Source: a bacterium
GTDB taxonomy: Bacteria > T1Sed10-126
Assembly (NCBI GenBank): GCA_003554945.1
Contig: PWHN01000099.1
Location: 33,613-97,612, forward strand
DNA: 64,000 nucleotides
Direction: 5' to 3'
Each line of letters starts with the position of its first letter. Positions within the stretch are counted from its first letter, which is position 1. The translations under genes and the position numbers were made by a program. The notes under the pieces were generated by a model. It saw only the letters and a list, made by a program, of their open reading frames with translations. It did not search any database and was not told the DNA's origin. Of this stretch, positions 8,748-16,008 are shown piece after piece.

Positions 8748-8792
8748 TATATTAACAGCTTAACAGATATGCGGAAAGGGTTTGATCAAACC

Positions 8793-9266
8793 GTGAAAAT
8801 TAAGTCGAAGCCCTACGGCGAAATTGAAATTGACAGGGATAAAATAGTTACAGTCCGAGGCGGACTGTTTGGGTTTGAAGACCAGGAGGAATACGTAATC
8901 ATAGGAAGAGAGAGCGAACAGCCCTTTGAGTGGTTACAGGCGGTAAACGATCCCGACCTGGCTTTTGTTGTAGTGCCTCCTAACCTCATACGACCGGATT
9001 ACGAGCTTTCTATTCTGCCGGAAGATCTCAAGCAGATAGAAGCGGATTCGACCGACGATTTGATGCTTTATTCGATCGTGGTTGTGCCACAAAATCCGGA
9101 CGCGATGACAATTAACTTTCGCGGACCGGTAATAGTAAATCAGGAAAATTTTCTGGCCAAACAGGTGATTAACCAGGTAGATGAATATACGGTGCGTCAT
9201 CGGGTTCTTGATGAGCTGGAAGCTTCCGGTCGGCAGGGACTGGTCGCGAAGGGCGGGAGCGAGTAA
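8793..9266 (+). CDS. fliW: Flagellar assembly factor FliW (CsrA antagonist)
   Basis: FliW binds flagellin and CsrA in turn, releasing CsrA repression when flagellin is secreted. The 157-residue product from the GTG at 8793 begins [14 protein letters not shown], which aligns with the normal FliW N-terminus. GGAAAGGG lies 12 bases upstream. An in-frame ATG at 8769 would add 8 residues but has no Shine-Dalgarno, so the GTG is preferred. Core features include GLFGFED, the PDLAFVVV region and NFLAKQVI. The stop overlaps the csrA ATG (TAATG), implying translational coupling. Confidence 0.95.
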
Positions 9267-9517
9267 TGCTTGTTCTTACCCGAAAAGTTGACGAACGCGT
9301 TATGATTGGCGACGACATTGAGATTATGATTGTCGATCAGGACGGCGATCAGGTCAAACTGGGAATTGAAGCACCGCGTGAGATACCGATTCATCGCCGC
9401 GAGGTTTATGAAGAAATCCAGAAAGAAAACATCGAAGCAGCCCGCGCAAGCGGGGAGGAGACCCGTTCTGTGGCAGAGTTTCTTAAACAACAAAGTGAAG
9501 AAAAAAAAGAATCTTAA
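9266..9517 (+). CDS. csrA: Carbon storage/translation regulator CsrA
   Basis: This 83-residue protein starts [20 protein letters not shown] and contains [21 protein letters not shown], which is textbook CsrA. CsrA dimers bind GGA motifs in hairpin loops and over Shine-Dalgarno sites. In Firmicutes the known target is flagellin mRNA, and FliW is the protein antagonist. All three pieces are present: fliW directly upstream, and three flagellin leaders with GGA-loop hairpins downstream. The C-terminal 25 residues are a charged tail, somewhat longer than the minimal 60-70 residue family members. Confidence 0.98.
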
Positions 9518-9525
9518 AAAAATAT

Positions 9526-9554
9526 TTGACAAACGGCGATTGATGTCCGATAAT
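9526..9554 (+). promoter_or_regulatory. Sigma-A-type promoter for flagellin 1
   Basis: A consensus TTGACA (9526-9531), a 17-base spacer and GATAAT (9549-9554) start right after csrA. The overlapping TCCGATAA resembles a sigma-28 -10, but no matching -35 is present. Transcription from here gives a leader of about 510 nt before the first flagellin gene. Confidence 0.7.
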
Positions 9555-9842
9555 TAGATTGACATAAGAAAAAGTCAGCAAGGATGCTGGCTGGAGGACA
9601 ATTTTTTCACATGGAGGTTTGATAATATTACACTTGTAAACTTAGCCTATTCTTGGTGTGCAGTCTCGGACTGCGCAGGCAGGGGTAGGTTTTTTTTGTG
9701 CACCATGTTGTATACGCGCTTTTTTTGGGGCTCATGAGAGTTAAAGTTGGATTAGTAGTATTTGTAGTAACTCTGGATTGATCTTTTTTCTTTTTTGCTC
9801 TACGGGGTAAACGGTTCGACGTCATTTGACGGCCGGACTGAA

Positions 9843-9886
9843 GCTCTTTGACATTCAAATATAGTCGATAGGTTGAGACAGCCTGG
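9843..9886 (+). promoter_or_regulatory. boxA-like element plus 5' arm of flagellin-1 panhandle
   Basis: GCTCTTTGACA (9843-9853) resembles the boxA antitermination element of rRNA leaders. Bases 9861-9886 can pair with 10992-11016, beyond the stop codon of flagellin 1. I count 25 base pairs (three of them G-U) with one bulged base (T9874). Confidence 0.75.
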
Positions 9887-10028
9887 ACGCCGGTATGGTG
9901 GTTGTATCCTCCGCCGCTTTAGTGGGGAACAACTGCTGTTACCGGACTGTTTTACCACGTTTTTTTTACATCATTAGTGCTTGACTGCACAGGACTATCA
10001 GTACAATTTAGCACAATCTTAGCACAAT

Positions 10029-10067
10029 TCGAATCAAGGACGATTCGATCTTAACTCCAGGAGGGAG
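10029..10067 (+). promoter_or_regulatory. CsrA-type hairpin and Shine-Dalgarno of flagellin 1
   Basis: A 7-bp stem (10029-10035 with 10042-10048) shows AAGGAC in its loop, the usual GGA-in-loop CsrA site. The second site is the Shine-Dalgarno AGGAGGGAG at 10059-10067, 10 bases before the ATG. This two-site layout is that of B. subtilis hag. Confidence 0.8.
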
Positions 10068-10077
10068 TGTTCTACCG

Positions 10078-10971
10078 ATGGGTGGTATGTTTAGAATTAA
10101 CACTAACGTTCAGGCTACATTTGCACAACGACAGTTACACAGAAGTTCTGGTGATCTTGACCAGGCGCAGGAGCGTCTGTCCAGTGGTTTACGTATTAAC
10201 GTGGCTGCTGATGACGCCGCTGGACTGGCCATTGCTGAGAAATTGAGCATGGCCGGCCGTGGTCTTGACCAGGCGCAGTCTAACGCTCAGGACGGTATAT
10301 CAGTACTTCAGACCGCCGAGGGTGGTCTTGAGTCTATTGGTGACGACCTGCAGCGGATGCGTGAGCTGGCTGTTCAGGCAGCTAACGACAGCTTGACTGA
10401 CGATGACCGTGAACTGATCCAGACTGAGATTTCTCAGCTGGTAGATGAGGTTGACCGAACCGCCTCCACGGTTCAGTTTAACCAGCGTCAACTGCTTACC
10501 AATCAATTTGGTGAAGTTGACGAGGCTGGACGAGCTACTGCTGGAGAGGCATCACTGACTTTCCACATTGGCGCTAACCGTGACGAGACAATCACGGTGG
10601 CCATGGGAGACGGTCAAGCTATTCAGACGGCTACCTCGCAAGCGCTTGGTATTCGTGTCGACGACGCCCCGATAAGCGTTGAATCACGTGAGGGTGCTGA
10701 ATCGGCGATCGAAACGGTTACCCAGGCGATTAACGAAGTTTCGGAAACTCGCGCTAACATTGGTGCCGTTCAGAACCGTCTCGAGGGAGCTGTTGACTTC
10801 CTGCAGATCCAGGGAGAGAACACCGAGGCTTCCGAGAGCGCGATTCGTGACGCTGACATTGCCGCGGAAGCGGTCAACCAGACCCGAGCTAACATCTTGA
10901 CTCAAGCCGGTACTTCCGTGCTTGCACAGGCCCAGCAGACGCCGCAGATGGCGCTGCAGTTGCTCGGTTAA
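10078..10971 (+). CDS. fla1: Flagellin 1
   Basis: This 297-residue flagellin has conserved D0/D1 ends (MFRINTNVQATFAQRQLHRS, LSSGLRINVAADDAAGLAI, and the C-terminal TQAGTSVLAQAQQTPQMALQ) and a very short middle. It therefore lacks large D2/D3 surface domains. It polymerises into the filament after FliS- and FlgK/L-dependent export; fliS and fliD are not in the window. It is the closest paralogue of flagellin 3. The gene lies entirely within its own 5'/3' arm pair, and its leader is the longest of the four. Confidence 0.97.
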   Translation: MGGMFRINTNVQATFAQRQLHRSSGDLDQAQERLSSGLRINVAADDAAGLAIAEKLSMAGRGLDQAQSNAQDGISVLQTAEGGLESIGDDLQRMRELAVQAANDSLTDDDRELIQTEISQLVDEVDRTASTVQFNQRQLLTNQFGEVDEAGRATAGEASLTFHIGANRDETITVAMGDGQAIQTATSQALGIRVDDAPISVESREGAESAIETVTQAINEVSETRANIGAVQNRLEGAVDFLQIQGENTEASESAIRDADIAAEAVNQTRANILTQAGTSVLAQAQQTPQMALQLLG

Positions 10972-10991
10972 CTTTTTTAGTTCTTTTTTAC

Positions 10992-11016
10992 CCGGGCTGT
11001 CTCGCCTATCGGCTAT
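10992..11016 (+). promoter_or_regulatory. 3' arm of flagellin-1 panhandle
   Basis: This segment, 20 bases after the flagellin-1 stop, is complementary to 9861-9886 with one bulge. It separates flagellin 1 from flaG, as a processing stem would. A T-rich tract follows at 11018-11026. Confidence 0.75.
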
Positions 11017-11078
11017 CTTTTATTTTTACGAAAAACTGCTGGTGCGGTTTATGCCACAGCGGATGGGAATGAGATGAA

Positions 11079-11468
11079 ATGAATCATGGGACCGGAGCGA
11101 TTGAGGGACCCGAGTTTCAAAATAGTTTGATCCAAAATAATAATTTGAACAGAGCCGAAACTACGGCTGAAACAGACCGACCGGATAACTCTGCCGGAGC
11201 AGCGGTCGAGCGACCGGTTGCTGAGACTACCGTAAGTGTAGAGGATCAGGCAGTTGCCGAAGCTGTTGAAGAACTCGATCAGGCGGCCGCCGAAGCCTCT
11301 TTTTACGGGATTGATTTTAATATCTTGCCCGATGACAACCTGGTCCAGGCACGGTTGATCAGCCAGGAGAATGAGGAGTTGATTCGCGCTATCCCGCCTG
11401 ATGAACTGCTGGAAATAAGGCAGCGCGTTGACGCTTTCATAGGACTGTTGTTTGATGTGACAAGATAA
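11079..11468 (+). CDS. flaG: FlaG-family protein
   Basis: The C-terminal half of this 129-residue protein fits FlaG: EAVEELDQAA, then a beta segment (FNILPDDNLVQARLISQENE), then LIRAIPPDELLEIRQRV and GLLFD at the end. FlaG proteins affect filament length in several bacteria; the mechanism is not settled. The N-terminal 50 residues are low-complexity and polar, as usual. It starts about 60 bases after the flagellin-1 3' arm with a weak ribosome site, and it precedes flagellin 2 by 69 bases. Confidence 0.85.
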   Translation: MNHGTGAIEGPEFQNSLIQNNNLNRAETTAETDRPDNSAGAAVERPVAETTVSVEDQAVAEAVEELDQAAAEASFYGIDFNILPDDNLVQARLISQENEELIRAIPPDELLEIRQRVDAFIGLLFDVTR

Positions 11469-11537
11469 CAAAACTTCATCGCCGCCCGGGTCACGGAAGA
11501 CCTGGTTAAAAATCTCCAGGAGGGAGCTGAAGCCGCT

Positions 11538-12428
11538 ATGGGCGGTTTATTTCGTGTTAACACCAATACGCAGGCGACCTTTATTGAGCGCCAGCTCTAT
11601 CGCAATACCCGGCAACTGGATCGGGCGCAGGAACGTCTGGCCAGTGGCTTCAGGATTAATCGGGCAGCTGACGATGCAGCCGGGCTGGCTATTTCTGAAA
11701 AGTTGCGCATGGCCGAGCGCGGCCTGAGTCAGGCTCAGGCCAACGCTCAGGACGGGATCTCACTCCTTCAGACTGCCGAAGGTGGTATGGAGACAGTTAC
11801 AGAAGATTTACAGAGAATTCGTGAGCTCAGCTTACAAGCGGCCAACGACAGTCTTACCGACTCCGATCGTGAATTAATTCAGGCTGAAATAAATCAACTT
11901 GTCCAGGAGATAGACCGTACGGCCTCTACCGTGCAGTTTAACCAGCGTCAGCTGCTTAAAAATGATTTTGGAACTGTTGATGCTGGCGGTCGGGTCCAGG
12001 ATGACGGCCGAGCTTCCCTTGCTTTCCACATTGGTGCCAACCGTAACGAAATTATCAGGGTTACTACAAACGAATTAGGAACTACTACCTCACGTTCTTT
12101 GAACCTGAGAACCGAGGATACTTCGCTAAGTATCAGTACACGCGAGGCCGCCGAGTCGGCAATCGAAGTGGCTACCCGGGCAATTAACCAGGTCTCCCGG
12201 CAGAGGGCTAATATTGGAGCACTTCAGAATCGACTCGAGGGTGCGGTCGATTTTCTCCAAATTCAAGAAGAAAATACTCAACGTGCCGACAGCCGCATAC
12301 GTGACGCTGACATCGCCCGGGAGACGATGAATATGACCCGCTCTCAAATTCTTGTCCAGGCCGGCACCTCGCTGCTTGCCCAGGCCCAGGAACTGCCCCG
12401 CACCATCCTCCAAATACTGGGCATCTAA
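11538..12428 (+). CDS. fla2: Flagellin 2
   Basis: This 296-residue flagellin has the same short architecture as the others (MGGLFRVNTNTQATFIERQL, LASGFRINRAADDAAGLAI). It differs most at the C-terminus (GTSLLAQAQELPRTILQILGI) and so may be a minor or differently placed filament subunit. Unlike the other three it has no boxA-like element, no paired arms and no GGA-loop hairpin, only the Shine-Dalgarno CCAGGAGGGAG. It is probably expressed from the flaG transcript. A small local stem (CCGGGTC and GACCTGG, about 11488-11508) precedes it. Confidence 0.96.
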   Translation: MGGLFRVNTNTQATFIERQLYRNTRQLDRAQERLASGFRINRAADDAAGLAISEKLRMAERGLSQAQANAQDGISLLQTAEGGMETVTEDLQRIRELSLQAANDSLTDSDRELIQAEINQLVQEIDRTASTVQFNQRQLLKNDFGTVDAGGRVQDDGRASLAFHIGANRNEIIRVTTNELGTTTSRSLNLRTEDTSLSISTREAAESAIEVATRAINQVSRQRANIGALQNRLEGAVDFLQIQEENTQRADSRIRDADIARETMNMTRSQILVQAGTSLLAQAQELPRTILQILGI

Positions 12429-12638
12429 CTTTTTTCTTTTTTCTAAAGCTATCTTTGAAGTTTTTAGATTCCAGTTCCAGGTTTTAACTCGCAACACGCA
12501 ACACGCAATAAGGTTTATGGTTTTGAAGTTTGATTTCAACTTTAAACTAAAAACTATAAACTGGAAACTAATTTTATCCCGCAACTACACTTTTACACTT
12601 TCCCACTTTCTAACTTTCCCACTAACAAATTTCTCCAC
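12429..12638 (+). repeat. Low-complexity spacer with short direct repeats
   Basis: This stretch after flagellin 2 has no gene. It contains short near-repeats: CGCAACACGCAACACGCAA, AAACTAAAAACTATAAACT, and several TTTCCCAC or TTTCTAAC units. A similar stretch (ACCGATTACCGATCACCGAA) occurs at about 16048-16067 before argS. It looks like slippage-type sequence with no evident function. Confidence 0.5.
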
Positions 12639-12665
12639 TCAAGATTTTTCCTCCGTAGTCGATAA
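12639..12665 (+). promoter_or_regulatory. Sigma-D/sigma-28 promoter of flagellin 3
   Basis: TCAAGATT (12639-12646), an 11-base spacer and GTCGATAA (12658-12665) fit the flagellar consensus TAAAGTTT-N11-GCCGATAA at about 13 of 16 positions. The predicted transcript start (about 12672) is upstream of the boxA-like element. Confidence 0.7.
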
Positions 12666-12696
12666 TTAAGAACAGGATTATTACGAGACGACAGGG

Positions 12697-12739
12697 ATCT
12701 TTGACATGTGAATACAGCCGGCGAACGGGGACCTGGCCC
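12697..12739 (+). promoter_or_regulatory. boxA-like element plus 5' arm of flagellin-3 panhandle
   Basis: ATCTTTGACA (12697-12706) is boxA-like. Bases 12711-12739 can pair with 13738-13766 along all 29 positions, with a single G-U pair and no bulge. The helix would enclose the whole of flagellin 3. Confidence 0.85.
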
Positions 12740-12768
12740 TTTTGTAGCATCAGTACGACCGTTGAACT

Positions 12769-12809
12769 TCGAATCAAGGATGATTCGATTCTAAAATTCC
12801 AGGAGGGAG
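12769..12809 (+). promoter_or_regulatory. CsrA-type hairpin and Shine-Dalgarno of flagellin 3
   Basis: The stem 12769-12775 / 12782-12788 exposes AAGGAT in the loop. Shine-Dalgarno AGGAGGGAG is at 12801-12809. It is almost identical to the flagellin-1 element. Confidence 0.8.
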
Positions 12810-12819
12810 TGTTCTAATT

Positions 12820-13719
12820 ATGGGAGGTCTATTTCGAATCAACACAAACGTGCAGGCCACGTTCTCTCAACGTCAACTGCACAGAAGTTCCGCTGATCTT
12901 GACAGAGCACAGGAGCGTTTGTCCAGCGGGTTAAGGATTAACGTCGCCGCAGACGATGCCGCAGGACTGGCTATTGCTGAGAAGTTAGAAATGGCTGGCC
13001 GCGGTTTAAGCCAAGCCCAGGACAACGCTCAGGACGGTATATCCGTCCTGCAAACCGCTGAGGGTGGTCTTGAATCCATTGGAGACGACCTGCAGCGGAT
13101 GCGTGAGCTGGCCGTGCAAGCTGCTAACGACAGTTTGACTGACGACGATCGTGAACTGATCCAGACTGAGATTTCTCAGCTGGTCGATGAGATCGATCGC
13201 ACAGCTTCCACGGTGCAGTTCAACCAGCGTCAGCTTTTAACCAACGAGTTTACAACCGTTGACGAATCTGGCGAGGCCCAAGAAGGTGAAGGCCCGGGTT
13301 CGCTTTCTTTTCACATTGGAGCGAACCGTGACGAGGTCATTACCGTGGACGTGGAAGACGACATTCAGACCGCAACTGCTACAGCACTCGGTATTCGCGA
13401 CGCTGACACGGGAGAACCCGTGAGCGTTGAAACCCGAGAACTTGCCGAATCCACGATCCAAACCGTTTCCGAGGCGATTAACGAGGTCTCGGAAAGTCGG
13501 GCCAACATCGGTGCCGTTCAGAATCGGCTCGAAGGTGCCGTCGATTTTCTCCAGATTCAGTATGAGAATACCGAGGCATCGGAGAGCGCGATTCGTGACG
13601 CTGACATTGCCGAAGAAGCTGTTAACCAGACAAGGGCCAACATTTTGACCCAGGCCGGTACTTCCGTTCTTGGTCAGGCACAGCAAACGCCACAGATGGC
13701 CCTGCAGCTTCTGCAGTAG
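12820..13719 (+). CDS. fla3: Flagellin 3
   Basis: This 299-residue flagellin is very close to flagellin 1 over the D0/D1 regions (MGGLFRINTNVQATFSQRQL, GTSVLGQAQQTPQMALQLLQ), with differences mainly around residues 145-200. The strong identity of the ends suggests recent duplication or gene conversion. It has its own sigma-D promoter, CsrA hairpin and enclosing arm pair, so it is a self-contained unit. Confidence 0.97.
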   Translation: MGGLFRINTNVQATFSQRQLHRSSADLDRAQERLSSGLRINVAADDAAGLAIAEKLEMAGRGLSQAQDNAQDGISVLQTAEGGLESIGDDLQRMRELAVQAANDSLTDDDRELIQTEISQLVDEIDRTASTVQFNQRQLLTNEFTTVDESGEAQEGEGPGSLSFHIGANRDEVITVDVEDDIQTATATALGIRDADTGEPVSVETRELAESTIQTVSEAINEVSESRANIGAVQNRLEGAVDFLQIQYENTEASESAIRDADIAEEAVNQTRANILTQAGTSVLGQAQQTPQMALQLLQ

Positions 13720-13737
13720 TTTTTTACTGACCTTTCC

Positions 13738-13766
13738 GGGCCAGGTCTCCGTTCGCCGGCTGTATT
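13738..13766 (+). promoter_or_regulatory. 3' arm of flagellin-3 panhandle
   Basis: Complementary to 12711-12739 over its full 29 bases (one G-U). It starts 18 bases after the stop codon. Confidence 0.85.
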
Positions 13767-13801
13767 TTTGAGCTGATTTTCTCCAAGGGAGTTTTATTTC
13801 C

Positions 13802-14764
13802 ATGAAAGTAACTTTTTCTTCTGAACAGCCGCTTGAAATTGAAGCGCCTGACCCCGAGCAGAAGCTGGGAGATTATATCGATTTTGTAAATAAAAAATTA
13901 AGCGATGTAAACCGGTTTATTTTTTCTGCCGAGGTCGACGGCGAACAAATTACAGAAGAACGCTGCCGGCAGAAATGTGATTCGTTTGAAGAATTAAAGC
14001 TGGAAGCCCGCTCTTTCGAAGAGATGACCATCGACACCATTGGCCGCTTAGGAGCTTATTGCCAGGAATACCTGGCTAAACTTCCACAGGTCATTGACGA
14101 GTGGAAAAAAAAGAGCGACGAAGAGAAAAATGCATTGCGTCGTCAAGTGCTTGAAGCTATAAATCTGGCCGGTAAGGTTCTGGACTCGATTGATGATTTT
14201 CTTGACGTCGCAGTGGAAGAACATGACACAATAAAAAGCAGAACAGAAAAATTGGCGGGGCAGTTTCGTGAGGCAGGGAGAGAAGAATTGAAGTCCTTGC
14301 TAACAGAGCAGGGGAGCGAATATTTTTCTGAATTATTTGACCACCTCAGAGCTGTACTGGATTACGTTGACGGGCAAAAAGATGCTGAGTCAGACCAGCT
14401 TTCACGTCTGGGCCGCCAGCTCGATGAACTGCACGAAGAACTAACCAACCTTATTAATAAATTCCAGGGCGGGGATATTGCCGACGCTTACGACCAATTG
14501 ACTGATCGAGCTACTGAAATAGATGAATTGCTTGCTGTTATCGGCGGGTTGGACAAGACTGGTTTCCTCAAACGTAATTTCACACCGGAAACTCAGGACG
14601 AATTAAGTCAGGCCCATACAGAACTTCACCGCGGTCTCACCGAATTACTTCAGGCCGTGGAGGAGCGCGATCCGATAATGGTCTGCGACATACTTGAGTA
14701 TGAGTTTTTACCCTACCTTGAATCTCTCCAAAAACTCTTTGGCAGCGTCGACGAAGCGGAATAG
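13802..14764 (+). CDS. Unknown helical protein in the flagellin cluster
   Basis: I do not recognise a family for this 320-residue protein. The first 70 or so residues look like a small mixed alpha/beta unit (MKVTFSSEQPLEIEAP). The rest is strongly helical and acidic, with coiled-coil character. The end has a distinctive stretch, ERDPIMVCDILEYEFLPYLE. There is no signal peptide or membrane segment, so it is likely cytosolic. It starts 35 bases after the flagellin-3 3' arm, and the flagellin-4 promoter begins right after its stop. Its position suggests a role in flagellin handling (chaperone, export or modification), but that is inference from position only. Confidence 0.75.
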   Translation: MKVTFSSEQPLEIEAPDPEQKLGDYIDFVNKKLSDVNRFIFSAEVDGEQITEERCRQKCDSFEELKLEARSFEEMTIDTIGRLGAYCQEYLAKLPQVIDEWKKKSDEEKNALRRQVLEAINLAGKVLDSIDDFLDVAVEEHDTIKSRTEKLAGQFREAGREELKSLLTEQGSEYFSELFDHLRAVLDYVDGQKDAESDQLSRLGRQLDELHEELTNLINKFQGGDIADAYDQLTDRATEIDELLAVIGGLDKTGFLKRNFTPETQDELSQAHTELHRGLTELLQAVEERDPIMVCDILEYEFLPYLESLQKLFGSVDEAE

Positions 14765-14769
14765 ATCGC

Positions 14770-14797
14770 TAAAGAATTTTTTTAATCAAACCGATAA
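14770..14797 (+). promoter_or_regulatory. Sigma-D/sigma-28 promoter of flagellin 4
   Basis: TAAAGAAT (14770-14777) and ACCGATAA (14790-14797) fit the flagellar sigma consensus with a spacer one base longer than usual. It starts 6 bases after the preceding stop codon. Confidence 0.7.
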
Positions 14798-14835
14798 TAT
14801 AACTCAAAGCTAAGTACTATACCTCAATAAAACTA

Positions 14836-14882
14836 TGTTCTCTGACAATTAAATACGGCCGGTGTGACGTTTCCTCTCCCGG
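14836..14882 (+). promoter_or_regulatory. boxA-like element plus 5' arm of flagellin-4 panhandle
   Basis: TGTTCTCTGACA (14836-14847) is boxA-like. Bases 14851-14864 pair perfectly (14 bp) with 15995-16008. After an internal loop, CCTCTC (14873-14878) and CCGG can pair with GAGAGG and CCGG near 15979-15989. Confidence 0.8.
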
Positions 14883-14948
14883 AGTTGTTCTTTTTTTAGC
14901 ATTTATTTATCTTTTTTATCCTTTTTGGAACAGCTCTCTGCTGTTCCA

Positions 14949-14989
14949 ATCGAATCAAGGACGATTCGATTACACTCCATAGAGGGAGG
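14949..14989 (+). promoter_or_regulatory. CsrA-type hairpin and Shine-Dalgarno of flagellin 4
   Basis: The 8-bp stem 14949-14956 / 14963-14970 exposes AAGGAC. GAGGGAGG at 14982-14989 is the ribosome site and a second potential CsrA site. Confidence 0.8.
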
Positions 14990-14997
14990 CATGTACT

Positions 14998-15966
14998 ATG
15001 TCAGAACTTTTTCGTATTCAGAATAACATTGCCGCTCAGTTTGCACAGCGGCAACTTAACCGCTCTGATTCTACATTAAACGAAGCCCAGGAAAGGCTTT
15101 CCAGTGGTTACAGAATTAACACCGCCTCGGACGATGCTGCCGGTCTTGCTATTTCGGAACGACTGCGAATGGCAGACCGAGGCCTCGGTCAGGCGGAGAG
15201 AAACGCACAGGACGCTATTTCAGTTCTGCAGACCGCCGAAGGAGGCCTGGAAACTATTGGCGATAACCTTCAGCGGATGCGCGAACTGGCCGTTCAAGCG
15301 GCTAACGACAGCCTGACCTGGGATGACCGGAGGTTGATCCAGACTGAGGTTGATCAGCTGGTCGAGGAGATCGATCGTAGTGCCTCGAGCGTGCAGTTCA
15401 ACCAGCGACAGCTTCTTAAGAACGACTTTGGAACTGTCGACGCGTCTGGTGAAACTGAAGAAGGTTCGGGATCATTAGTCTTTCACGTCGGGGCTAACCG
15501 GGATGAAGTCATGGAGATTACAACCGATGAACTGCGAACCATGACTTCGGTTAACCTTGGTCTCCGACTCACGGAAGACCGGAATGAGATCATTGAATAT
15601 CCCGGCGGTACTCTCTTGTATGGCCCCGACGATCAGTATTATGCTCTCAGTCTTTACCGGGACTCAGCCGGTAATTTGGATCGTAATGCTGCTGAATCCG
15701 CTATCGAGCGGATTACCCGGGCCATTGACCAGGTTTCAGACTCGAGAGCACGAATTGGTGCTGTTCAGAACCGTGTTGAGTCTACTATTGACTTCCTGCA
15801 ACTTCAGCAGGAGAACACGCAGGCTTCTGAAAGCAGAATTCGTGACGCTGATTTGGCGGAAGAGTCCGTCCGACGGACTCAAGCCGACATCCTGATGCAG
15901 GCCGGTACTTCCGTGCTTGCCCAGGCTAATCAGCAGCCTCAACTGGCATTACAGTTGTTGGCTTAG
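14998..15966 (+). CDS. fla4: Flagellin 4
   Basis: This 322-residue flagellin starts MSELFRIQNNIAAQFAQRQL and ends GTSVLAQANQQPQLALQLLA. It is the most divergent N-terminus of the four and has about 25 extra residues in the middle (around 195-225, including YPGGTLLYGPDDQYYAL), the variable surface region. It is a full sigma-D/boxA/arm/CsrA unit, so it is likely under the same control as flagellins 1 and 3. Confidence 0.97.
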   Translation: MSELFRIQNNIAAQFAQRQLNRSDSTLNEAQERLSSGYRINTASDDAAGLAISERLRMADRGLGQAERNAQDAISVLQTAEGGLETIGDNLQRMRELAVQAANDSLTWDDRRLIQTEVDQLVEEIDRSASSVQFNQRQLLKNDFGTVDASGETEEGSGSLVFHVGANRDEVMEITTDELRTMTSVNLGLRLTEDRNEIIEYPGGTLLYGPDDQYYALSLYRDSAGNLDRNAAESAIERITRAIDQVSDSRARIGAVQNRVESTIDFLQLQQENTQASESRIRDADLAEESVRRTQADILMQAGTSVLAQANQQPQLALQLLA

Positions 15967-15978
15967 AAAGAATTTTCA

Positions 15979-16008
15979 CCGGCGAGAGGTTCGCCACCGG
16001 CCGTATTT
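15979..16008 (+). promoter_or_regulatory. 3' arm of flagellin-4 panhandle
   Basis: Bases 15995-16008 are the exact complement of 14851-14864. The inner part (15979-15989) matches 14873-14882 in two short helices. Confidence 0.8.

Follow-up and report, generated by a model that had tools for sequence, protein, structure and literature searches.

Flagellin mRNAs that pair end to end behind a boxA-like motif suggest an rRNA-type module on a protein-coding message

We describe a putative RNA module carried by three of the four flagellin genes within a 64,000-nucleotide stretch of the bacterial contig PWHN01000099.1 (positions 33,613 to 97,612 of the forward strand; assembly GCA_003554945.1), hereafter the window. 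In flagellins 1, 3 and 4, a motif resembling the boxA of ribosomal RNA (rRNA) operons precedes a 5' arm whose complement, the 3' arm, lies just beyond the stop codon of the same gene. Sequence comparison gives good support to a conserved end-to-end helix formed by these arms in the sense transcript, and also supports a boxA of the rRNA kind. We incline to the view that the three messages carry an rRNA-type module as a whole, in which NusB-S10 would tether the 5' arm, transcription would resist Rho and the transcript would be closed. Nus-factor antitermination coupled to a leader-trailer helix is, to our knowledge, regarded as special to rRNA.

In all three genes (forward strand, like all window features below) the octamer CTYTGACA is followed by three bases and then by the 5' arm, and the 3' arm begins about 19-29 nt past the stop codon. 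Flagellin 1 (10078..10971, Flagellin_N/C) has CTTTGACA at 9846..9853 (anchored scan z 8.5), a 5' arm at 9861..9886 and a 3' arm at 10992..11016 that is followed by CTTTTATTTTTA; the arms form 22 Watson-Crick and three G-U pairs with one bulge. At flagellin 3 (12820..13719, profile match) the same CTTTGACA is found at 12699..12706 (z 10.7), and the arms at 12711..12739 and 13738..13766 form 28 Watson-Crick pairs and one G-U pair. The motif of flagellin 4 (14998..15966, profile match) is CTCTGACA at 14840..14847 (z 7.5); its outer helix, 14851..14864 with 15995..16008, has 14 Watson-Crick pairs, and an additional inner helix joins CCTCTCCCGG at 14873..14882 to 15979..15989. The arm coordinates agree with a preliminary description made from the letters alone, as does the placing of the motif before each 5' arm. 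That description also had the arm following the motif at a distance of 3-7 bases; the order stands, and the range is replaced by exactly three bases between the octamer and the arm-start RAATA in every case. Flagellin 2 (11538-12428) has neither a boxA-like motif nor a leader-trailer helix, and the window contains no Rfam match at gathering score.

RNAduplex energies across whole leaders were too permissive and were replaced by local helix scoring. Leader against trailer then scores 57, 77 and 47 for flagellins 1, 3 and 4, where shuffle means are 23-28; none of 400 shuffles reaches any of these scores, and Gumbel p values are about 1e-4, 7e-9 and 5e-5 (4.5e-7, 2e-10 and 4e-4 under stricter scoring). 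Each arm scores best with its own partner, the non-cognate combinations in these three rows giving 18-38. The 3' arm of flagellin 3 against the 5' arm of flagellin 4 (score 38, from a shared ATAC-GGCCGG core) falls below the cognate pairs and was set aside, and elsewhere among the genes of the window the highest score is 52, from two coding sequences matched with gaps. When full transcripts of 1.1-1.2 kb were folded, 25/26, 29/29 and 27/32 arm bases of flagellins 1, 3 and 4 lay in the closing helix, both in the minimum-energy structure and in the ensemble. No stable local hairpin was found in the three trailers, which alone fold no better than shuffled sequence, leaving the 3' arm without a strong partner nearby. 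The flanks of these genes are thus complementary in a way that closes the transcript, as in a leader-trailer helix.

For covariation within the phylum we relied on the genome of the window (G000) and on one genome from another genus (G001), the only other member of the phylum in our collection; family, order, class and phylum searches around the focal genome each comprised two genomes. Both have several flagellin genes (four in the window, with more copies on contigs C112 and C100). The G001 orthologue of flagellin 4 is split by a contig end and was joined by synteny from two contigs: it has the same neighbours as in the window, the orthologue of a gene for a 320-aa protein upstream of its 5' part (L023) and argS downstream of its 3' part (L024). 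Its 5' side, CTTTGAAAATTGAATACGGTCGGTG, and 3' side, CACCGACCGTATTT, have one pair altered on both sides relative to the window, the outer arms going from GGCC/GGCC to GGTC/GACC. The inner helix, TTCGGTTTG/CAAACCGAA, has the same place and a different sequence (CCTCTC..CCGG in the window). The boxA-to-arm sequences of flagellins 1, 3 and 4 and of G001 flagellin 4 align without gaps, with 7/15 pairs changed on both sides and 95% of cells pairing, a percentage biased towards structure because the rows were hand-cut at the arms; none of 500 shuffles is as high, and slid controls have 0-1 double-changed pairs. Read as sense RNA, the helices contain nine G-U mismatches and no A-C, and the sense duplex is more stable than the antisense in seven of eight cases. 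Part of this bias may stem from the scoring used to find the arms, but this can scarcely account for it in flagellins 1 and 3, whose helices are long. Mismatches that are only G-U on the sense strand indicate that selection acts on the transcript.

A survey of flagellins from several hundred genomes sampled across bacteria, with 166-173 genes having usable flanks, revealed a second lineage. In a boxA-blind scan of 166 flagellins (setting aside one self-complementary hairpin common to tandem genes), the best helices belonged to flagellin 3, flagellin 1, G133, G192, G018, flagellin 4 and G165, so that all five flagellins having both boxA and helix (1, 3, 4, G133 and G192) are in the top seven. 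Starting from the motif, 92 boxA-like sites in the leaders of 173 flagellins have an arm directly behind them only in these same five. G133 and G192 represent two genera within a single class that lies outside the phylum of the window, a placement resting on the kinship label 'same domain', and have one module-bearing flagellin each. Their 5' arms are preceded by TATTTGACAATTAAATA / TATTTGACAATTAAATAATA and are nearly wholly different from one another (AATCCGCGACGCGGCAACGGCAA; GCCAAACCCCTGAGAGGTTAACCGG), yet each pairs with its own trailer, also in folds; boxA is thus conserved as a sequence, and what persists in the arms is chiefly their pairing. The covariation evidence comes from few sequences per lineage. 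The proposal that the helices are selected RNA structures is borne out by covariation, by the sense-strand G-U bias and by this independent lineage, and the search of other genomes for covarying flanking arms had a positive outcome in G001 flagellin 4, where they covary, as well as in G133 and G192.

G018 and G165 (L095 and L094) have a covarying leader-trailer helix (TCAGGGACCCC..., CAGGGACCCC / GGGGTCCCTG) and no boxA in their flagellin leaders. Their 3' arm ends in a U run and has no local partner, which gives the helix the look of a terminator divided between the two ends of the gene. Scan matches at L139 and L245 were rejected as self-complementary hairpins, which probably arose by duplication of a terminator between tandem flagellins, and most gap-rich high-GC matches of the looser scoring disappeared under the stricter one.

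We compared the motif with the rRNA boxA of genomes in which rRNA leaders could be read: G147 (CTTTGAAAACTGAATAGG before 16S, CTTTGACAATTTAATAGG in the spacer before 23S), G029 (CTTTGAAAAGAATATAAGG), G110 (CCTTGAAAGCTGAATAGCG) and G133 (ATTTGAAAAAATAGCCCGG before 16S, TATTTGAAAATTGAATATTA before 23S). In all four, the distance from the end of boxA to the start of the 16S leader-trailer helix is between -2 and +5 nt; in the flagellin mRNAs the helix begins 3-4 nt after boxA. G133 is the key case, its flagellin motif having in common with its rRNA boxA an unusual first base (ATTTGA). This motif matches the organism's own 23S-leader motif, TATTTGAAAATTGAATA, at 17/21 positions. The G001 flagellin 4 motif likewise matches the G147 16S leader at 17/21. 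NusB (TIGR01951) is over cut-off in each of the four module-bearing genomes (G000, G001, G133 and G192) and below it in G018 and G165. The match to the G133 23S leader, the shared place relative to the helix of four 16S leaders and the presence of NusB uphold the earlier assignment of the motif to the rRNA-type boxA. When 104 boxA-like sites of G000 and G001 were tested for arms, the flagellin sites took the top three scores (77, 57 and 48; the next was 41), and no other site had convincing arms. One candidate rRNA leader, CTTTGACAACATA near the contig ends of C106 and C17 in G000, was dropped; it looks like a two-copy repeat (L079 at the C106 end, L084 on C17), in which CTTTGACAACATACAGGGAGC is followed by a long hairpin, ATAGCCGGTTGC...GCAACCGGCTAT.

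In the mechanism that we propose, the module would consist, in order, of boxA, 3 nt, the 5' arm, a CsrA-type hairpin, the Shine-Dalgarno sequence, the coding sequence and the 3' arm. NusB-S10 would bind boxA and stay on the elongating polymerase as in rRNA, keeping the 5' arm at the exit channel as the intervening flagellin RNA, about 1.1 kb long, is looped out, and transcription would be Rho-resistant even while CsrA holds the message untranslated. The emerging 3' arm could pair at once with the tethered 5' arm, so closing the transcript. The ribosome site and the stop codon lie inside the loop, and hence translation could continue with the ends closed. Closure might be followed by protection of the ends from exonucleases, by RNase III cutting of the longer helices, which would separate the flagellin RNA from its neighbours, or by termination at a T-rich tract. 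We infer the tethering, the cutting and the termination; the helices of 25-30 bp (flagellins 1 and 3, G133 and G192) suit RNase III in length. A wider suggestion, which we put forward tentatively, is that these are members of a pre-rRNA-like class of mRNA, Nus-tethered, folded end to end during transcription, Rho-proof and long-lived, perhaps with a split 1.1-kb terminator, which evolved or was kept in at least two lineages.

Several observations weigh against the rRNA-type module as a working whole. No 16S or 23S gene was found in the G000 and G001 assemblies, so that there is no boxA from the organism's own rRNA for comparison. The motif alone occurs genome-wide at background frequency, with no excess over control, and it gains weight only through its position and surroundings. 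The outer helix of flagellin 4, with 14 bp before an internal loop, is short for RNase III, and the module is lacking from the G001 flagellin 1 orthologue and from the organism's other flagellins. Finally, the boxA of Escherichia coli suhB lowers rather than raises expression (PMC5725501).

A possible objection is that the 3' arm and a segment 1.1 kb upstream are the two halves of one intrinsic terminator, with boxA tethering bringing the hairpin together in time and the U-rich tract ending transcription. A T-rich run does follow every 3' arm in the window (CTTTTATTTTT, TATTTTT and CTTTCCTTATTTT at flagellins 1, 3 and 4), that of G133 (GTTTTTTATTTTTT) and those of the boxA-less G018 and G165 (ATTTTTTT or ATTTTTATTTTT). 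The trailers, moreover, are not ordinary intrinsic terminators, having the U-rich tract and lacking a stable local hairpin (one weak site only, over the flagellin 3 stop and before the arm). We nevertheless find this split terminator rather doubtful, since the known effect of NusB-S10 complexes on intrinsic termination is to suppress it rather than bring it about, G192 has a normal terminator about 70 nt after its 3' arm, and the gene after flagellin 3 starts 36 nt beyond the arm, which leaves little promoter room, so that polymerase probably reads through. This probable read-through and the separate G192 terminator favour processing over termination as the usual outcome. Nus factors might also be dispensed with altogether, the helix being a mere closing clamp or RNase III substrate and the motif a chance likeness or part of the helix signal. 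G018 and G165 indicate that closure is possible without boxA, and the genome-wide frequency of the motif agrees with this account. We judge it unlikely because the boxA sequence is kept between G133 and G192 although the arms behind it differ almost completely, because the motif follows the lineage's own rRNA boxA (ATTTGA in G133), because its spacing from the arm is near-exact in five genes of two lineages, and because of the distribution of NusB given above.

A different role for boxA would be that of suhB, with a polymerase-tethered loop hiding the ribosome site and, beside CsrA, delaying translation until the hook is finished. There is precedent in suhB itself (PMC5725501), and the CsrA-type hairpins lie between the 5' arm and the start codon; but such an action has no need for the 3' arm, the most strongly selected part, and we consider it very improbable. 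Inverted repeats of 25-29 bp flanking flagellin genes might also recall DNA-level phase inversion of the Hin type. Such elements have near-identical repeats and a nearby recombinase, whereas the arms here differ between flagellin genes, no recombinase was found among the tested proteins, which came from the flagellar cluster and some genes beside it, and the mismatches are G-U on one strand, which is not expected of DNA repeats; this explanation is scarcely credible.

The genes stand in the order flgN, flgK, a flagellin-like protein at the flgL position, fliW (8769..9266, Pfam FliW E 1.2e-35; a flagellin-binding antagonist of CsrA), csrA (9266..9517, Pfam CsrA E 1.6e-25), flagellin 1, flaG, flagellin 2, flagellin 3, the 320-aa protein, flagellin 4 and argS. 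Folding predicts a hairpin GAATC-AAGGAY-GATTC, with an AAGGA loop, upstream of the ribosome site of flagellins 1, 3 and 4 (10029..10048, 12769..12788 and 14950..14969, the last with fold z -2.8); it has the form of a CsrA site under known site rules. Given these hairpins and the adjacent csrA and fliW, CsrA-FliW control of flagellin translation is likely. We know of no description of a boxA or closing helix in CsrA-FliW leaders of the Campylobacter flaA type. In G133 and G192, CsrA-like CAGGGATG and CAAGGGATTG were seen by eye between short complementary stretches. Searching for the sigma28 promoter pattern produced no match at the flagellins; CCGATAAT-like sequences upstream of flagellins 1 and 4 were noticed by eye only.

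Two further features of this neighbourhood are conserved between the two genera of the phylum. The 320-aa protein (window 13802-14764; G001 L023 1419-454, minus strand) precedes flagellin 4 in both, has no confident Pfam family and gives a weak apolipoprotein-like helical match; it may serve the flagellum as an accessory protein. Between csrA and flagellin 1 there is a conserved RNA (window 9555-9745; G001 L023 3425-3235, minus strand) behind a sigma70-like promoter, TTGACA-17-GATAAT, at 9526-9554. It contains a GCAAGGATGC hairpin and the sequence TTTTTCACATGGAGGTTTGATAAT, which does not differ between the two genera; near 9698 a strong hairpin with U8 resembles a terminator (fold z -3.65). 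It has no Rfam match and is a candidate CsrA-binding small RNA or attenuator.

If the rRNA-type module works as proposed, then rRNA antitermination plus helix is a portable means of making much of one RNA, and it would explain how a CsrA-held, untranslated message escapes Rho and decay. According to the tether model for rRNA, NusB-S10 keeps boxA attached to the polymerase, and the leader strand is therefore already in place as the trailer emerges; in this boxA-anchored 16S pairing, mutants of the spacing resemble those of boxA (PMC10250234). The flagellin module would offer a simple system, free of ribosome assembly, in which to ask whether boxA tethering drives leader-trailer pairing.

Among known systems, pre-rRNA (PMC10250234) has the same arrangement of a CTTTGAAAAYTGAATA-like boxA, the 5' half of a long helix and the 3' half after the RNA, with about the same boxA-to-helix distance in the rRNA of G147, G029, G110 and G133. 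The flagellin module differs in enclosing a translated reading frame of about 1.1 kb, in its helix of 14-30 bp and in the U-rich tract behind the 3' arm. A boxA in mRNA leaders is known from suhB and other gamma-proteobacterial genes (PMC5725501), likewise a NusB/E site in a 5' untranslated region (UTR), but no 3' arm or leader-trailer helix is described there and the outcome is repression. The same antitermination pair is tied to flagellar genes in E. coli, where NusB-S10 reads through sigma28 flagellar operons via MotR (PMC10578931), with no boxA named and no end-to-end helix. Staphylococcus aureus icaR provides a case of 5'-3' UTR pairing that is cut by RNase III (PMC3868564); there, however, a short motif blocks the ribosome site without boxA and lowers IcaR production. 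Campylobacter flaA, whose leader is under CsrA-FliW (PMC4894983), resembles the window in having CsrA-type sites before flagellin, csrA and fliW being adjacent in the latter. The preliminary description knew of no mRNA class with this layout: within the literature that we searched, whose coverage is incomplete, boxA and a leader-trailer helix were not reported together on an mRNA, although mRNA boxA (suhB) and 5'-3' pairing (icaR) were each already published. The comparison suggests that machinery for making and protecting rRNA has been borrowed for a heavily made protein message in two poorly sampled lineages, and, as its elements are each published separately, the module is best seen as a known one in a new setting.

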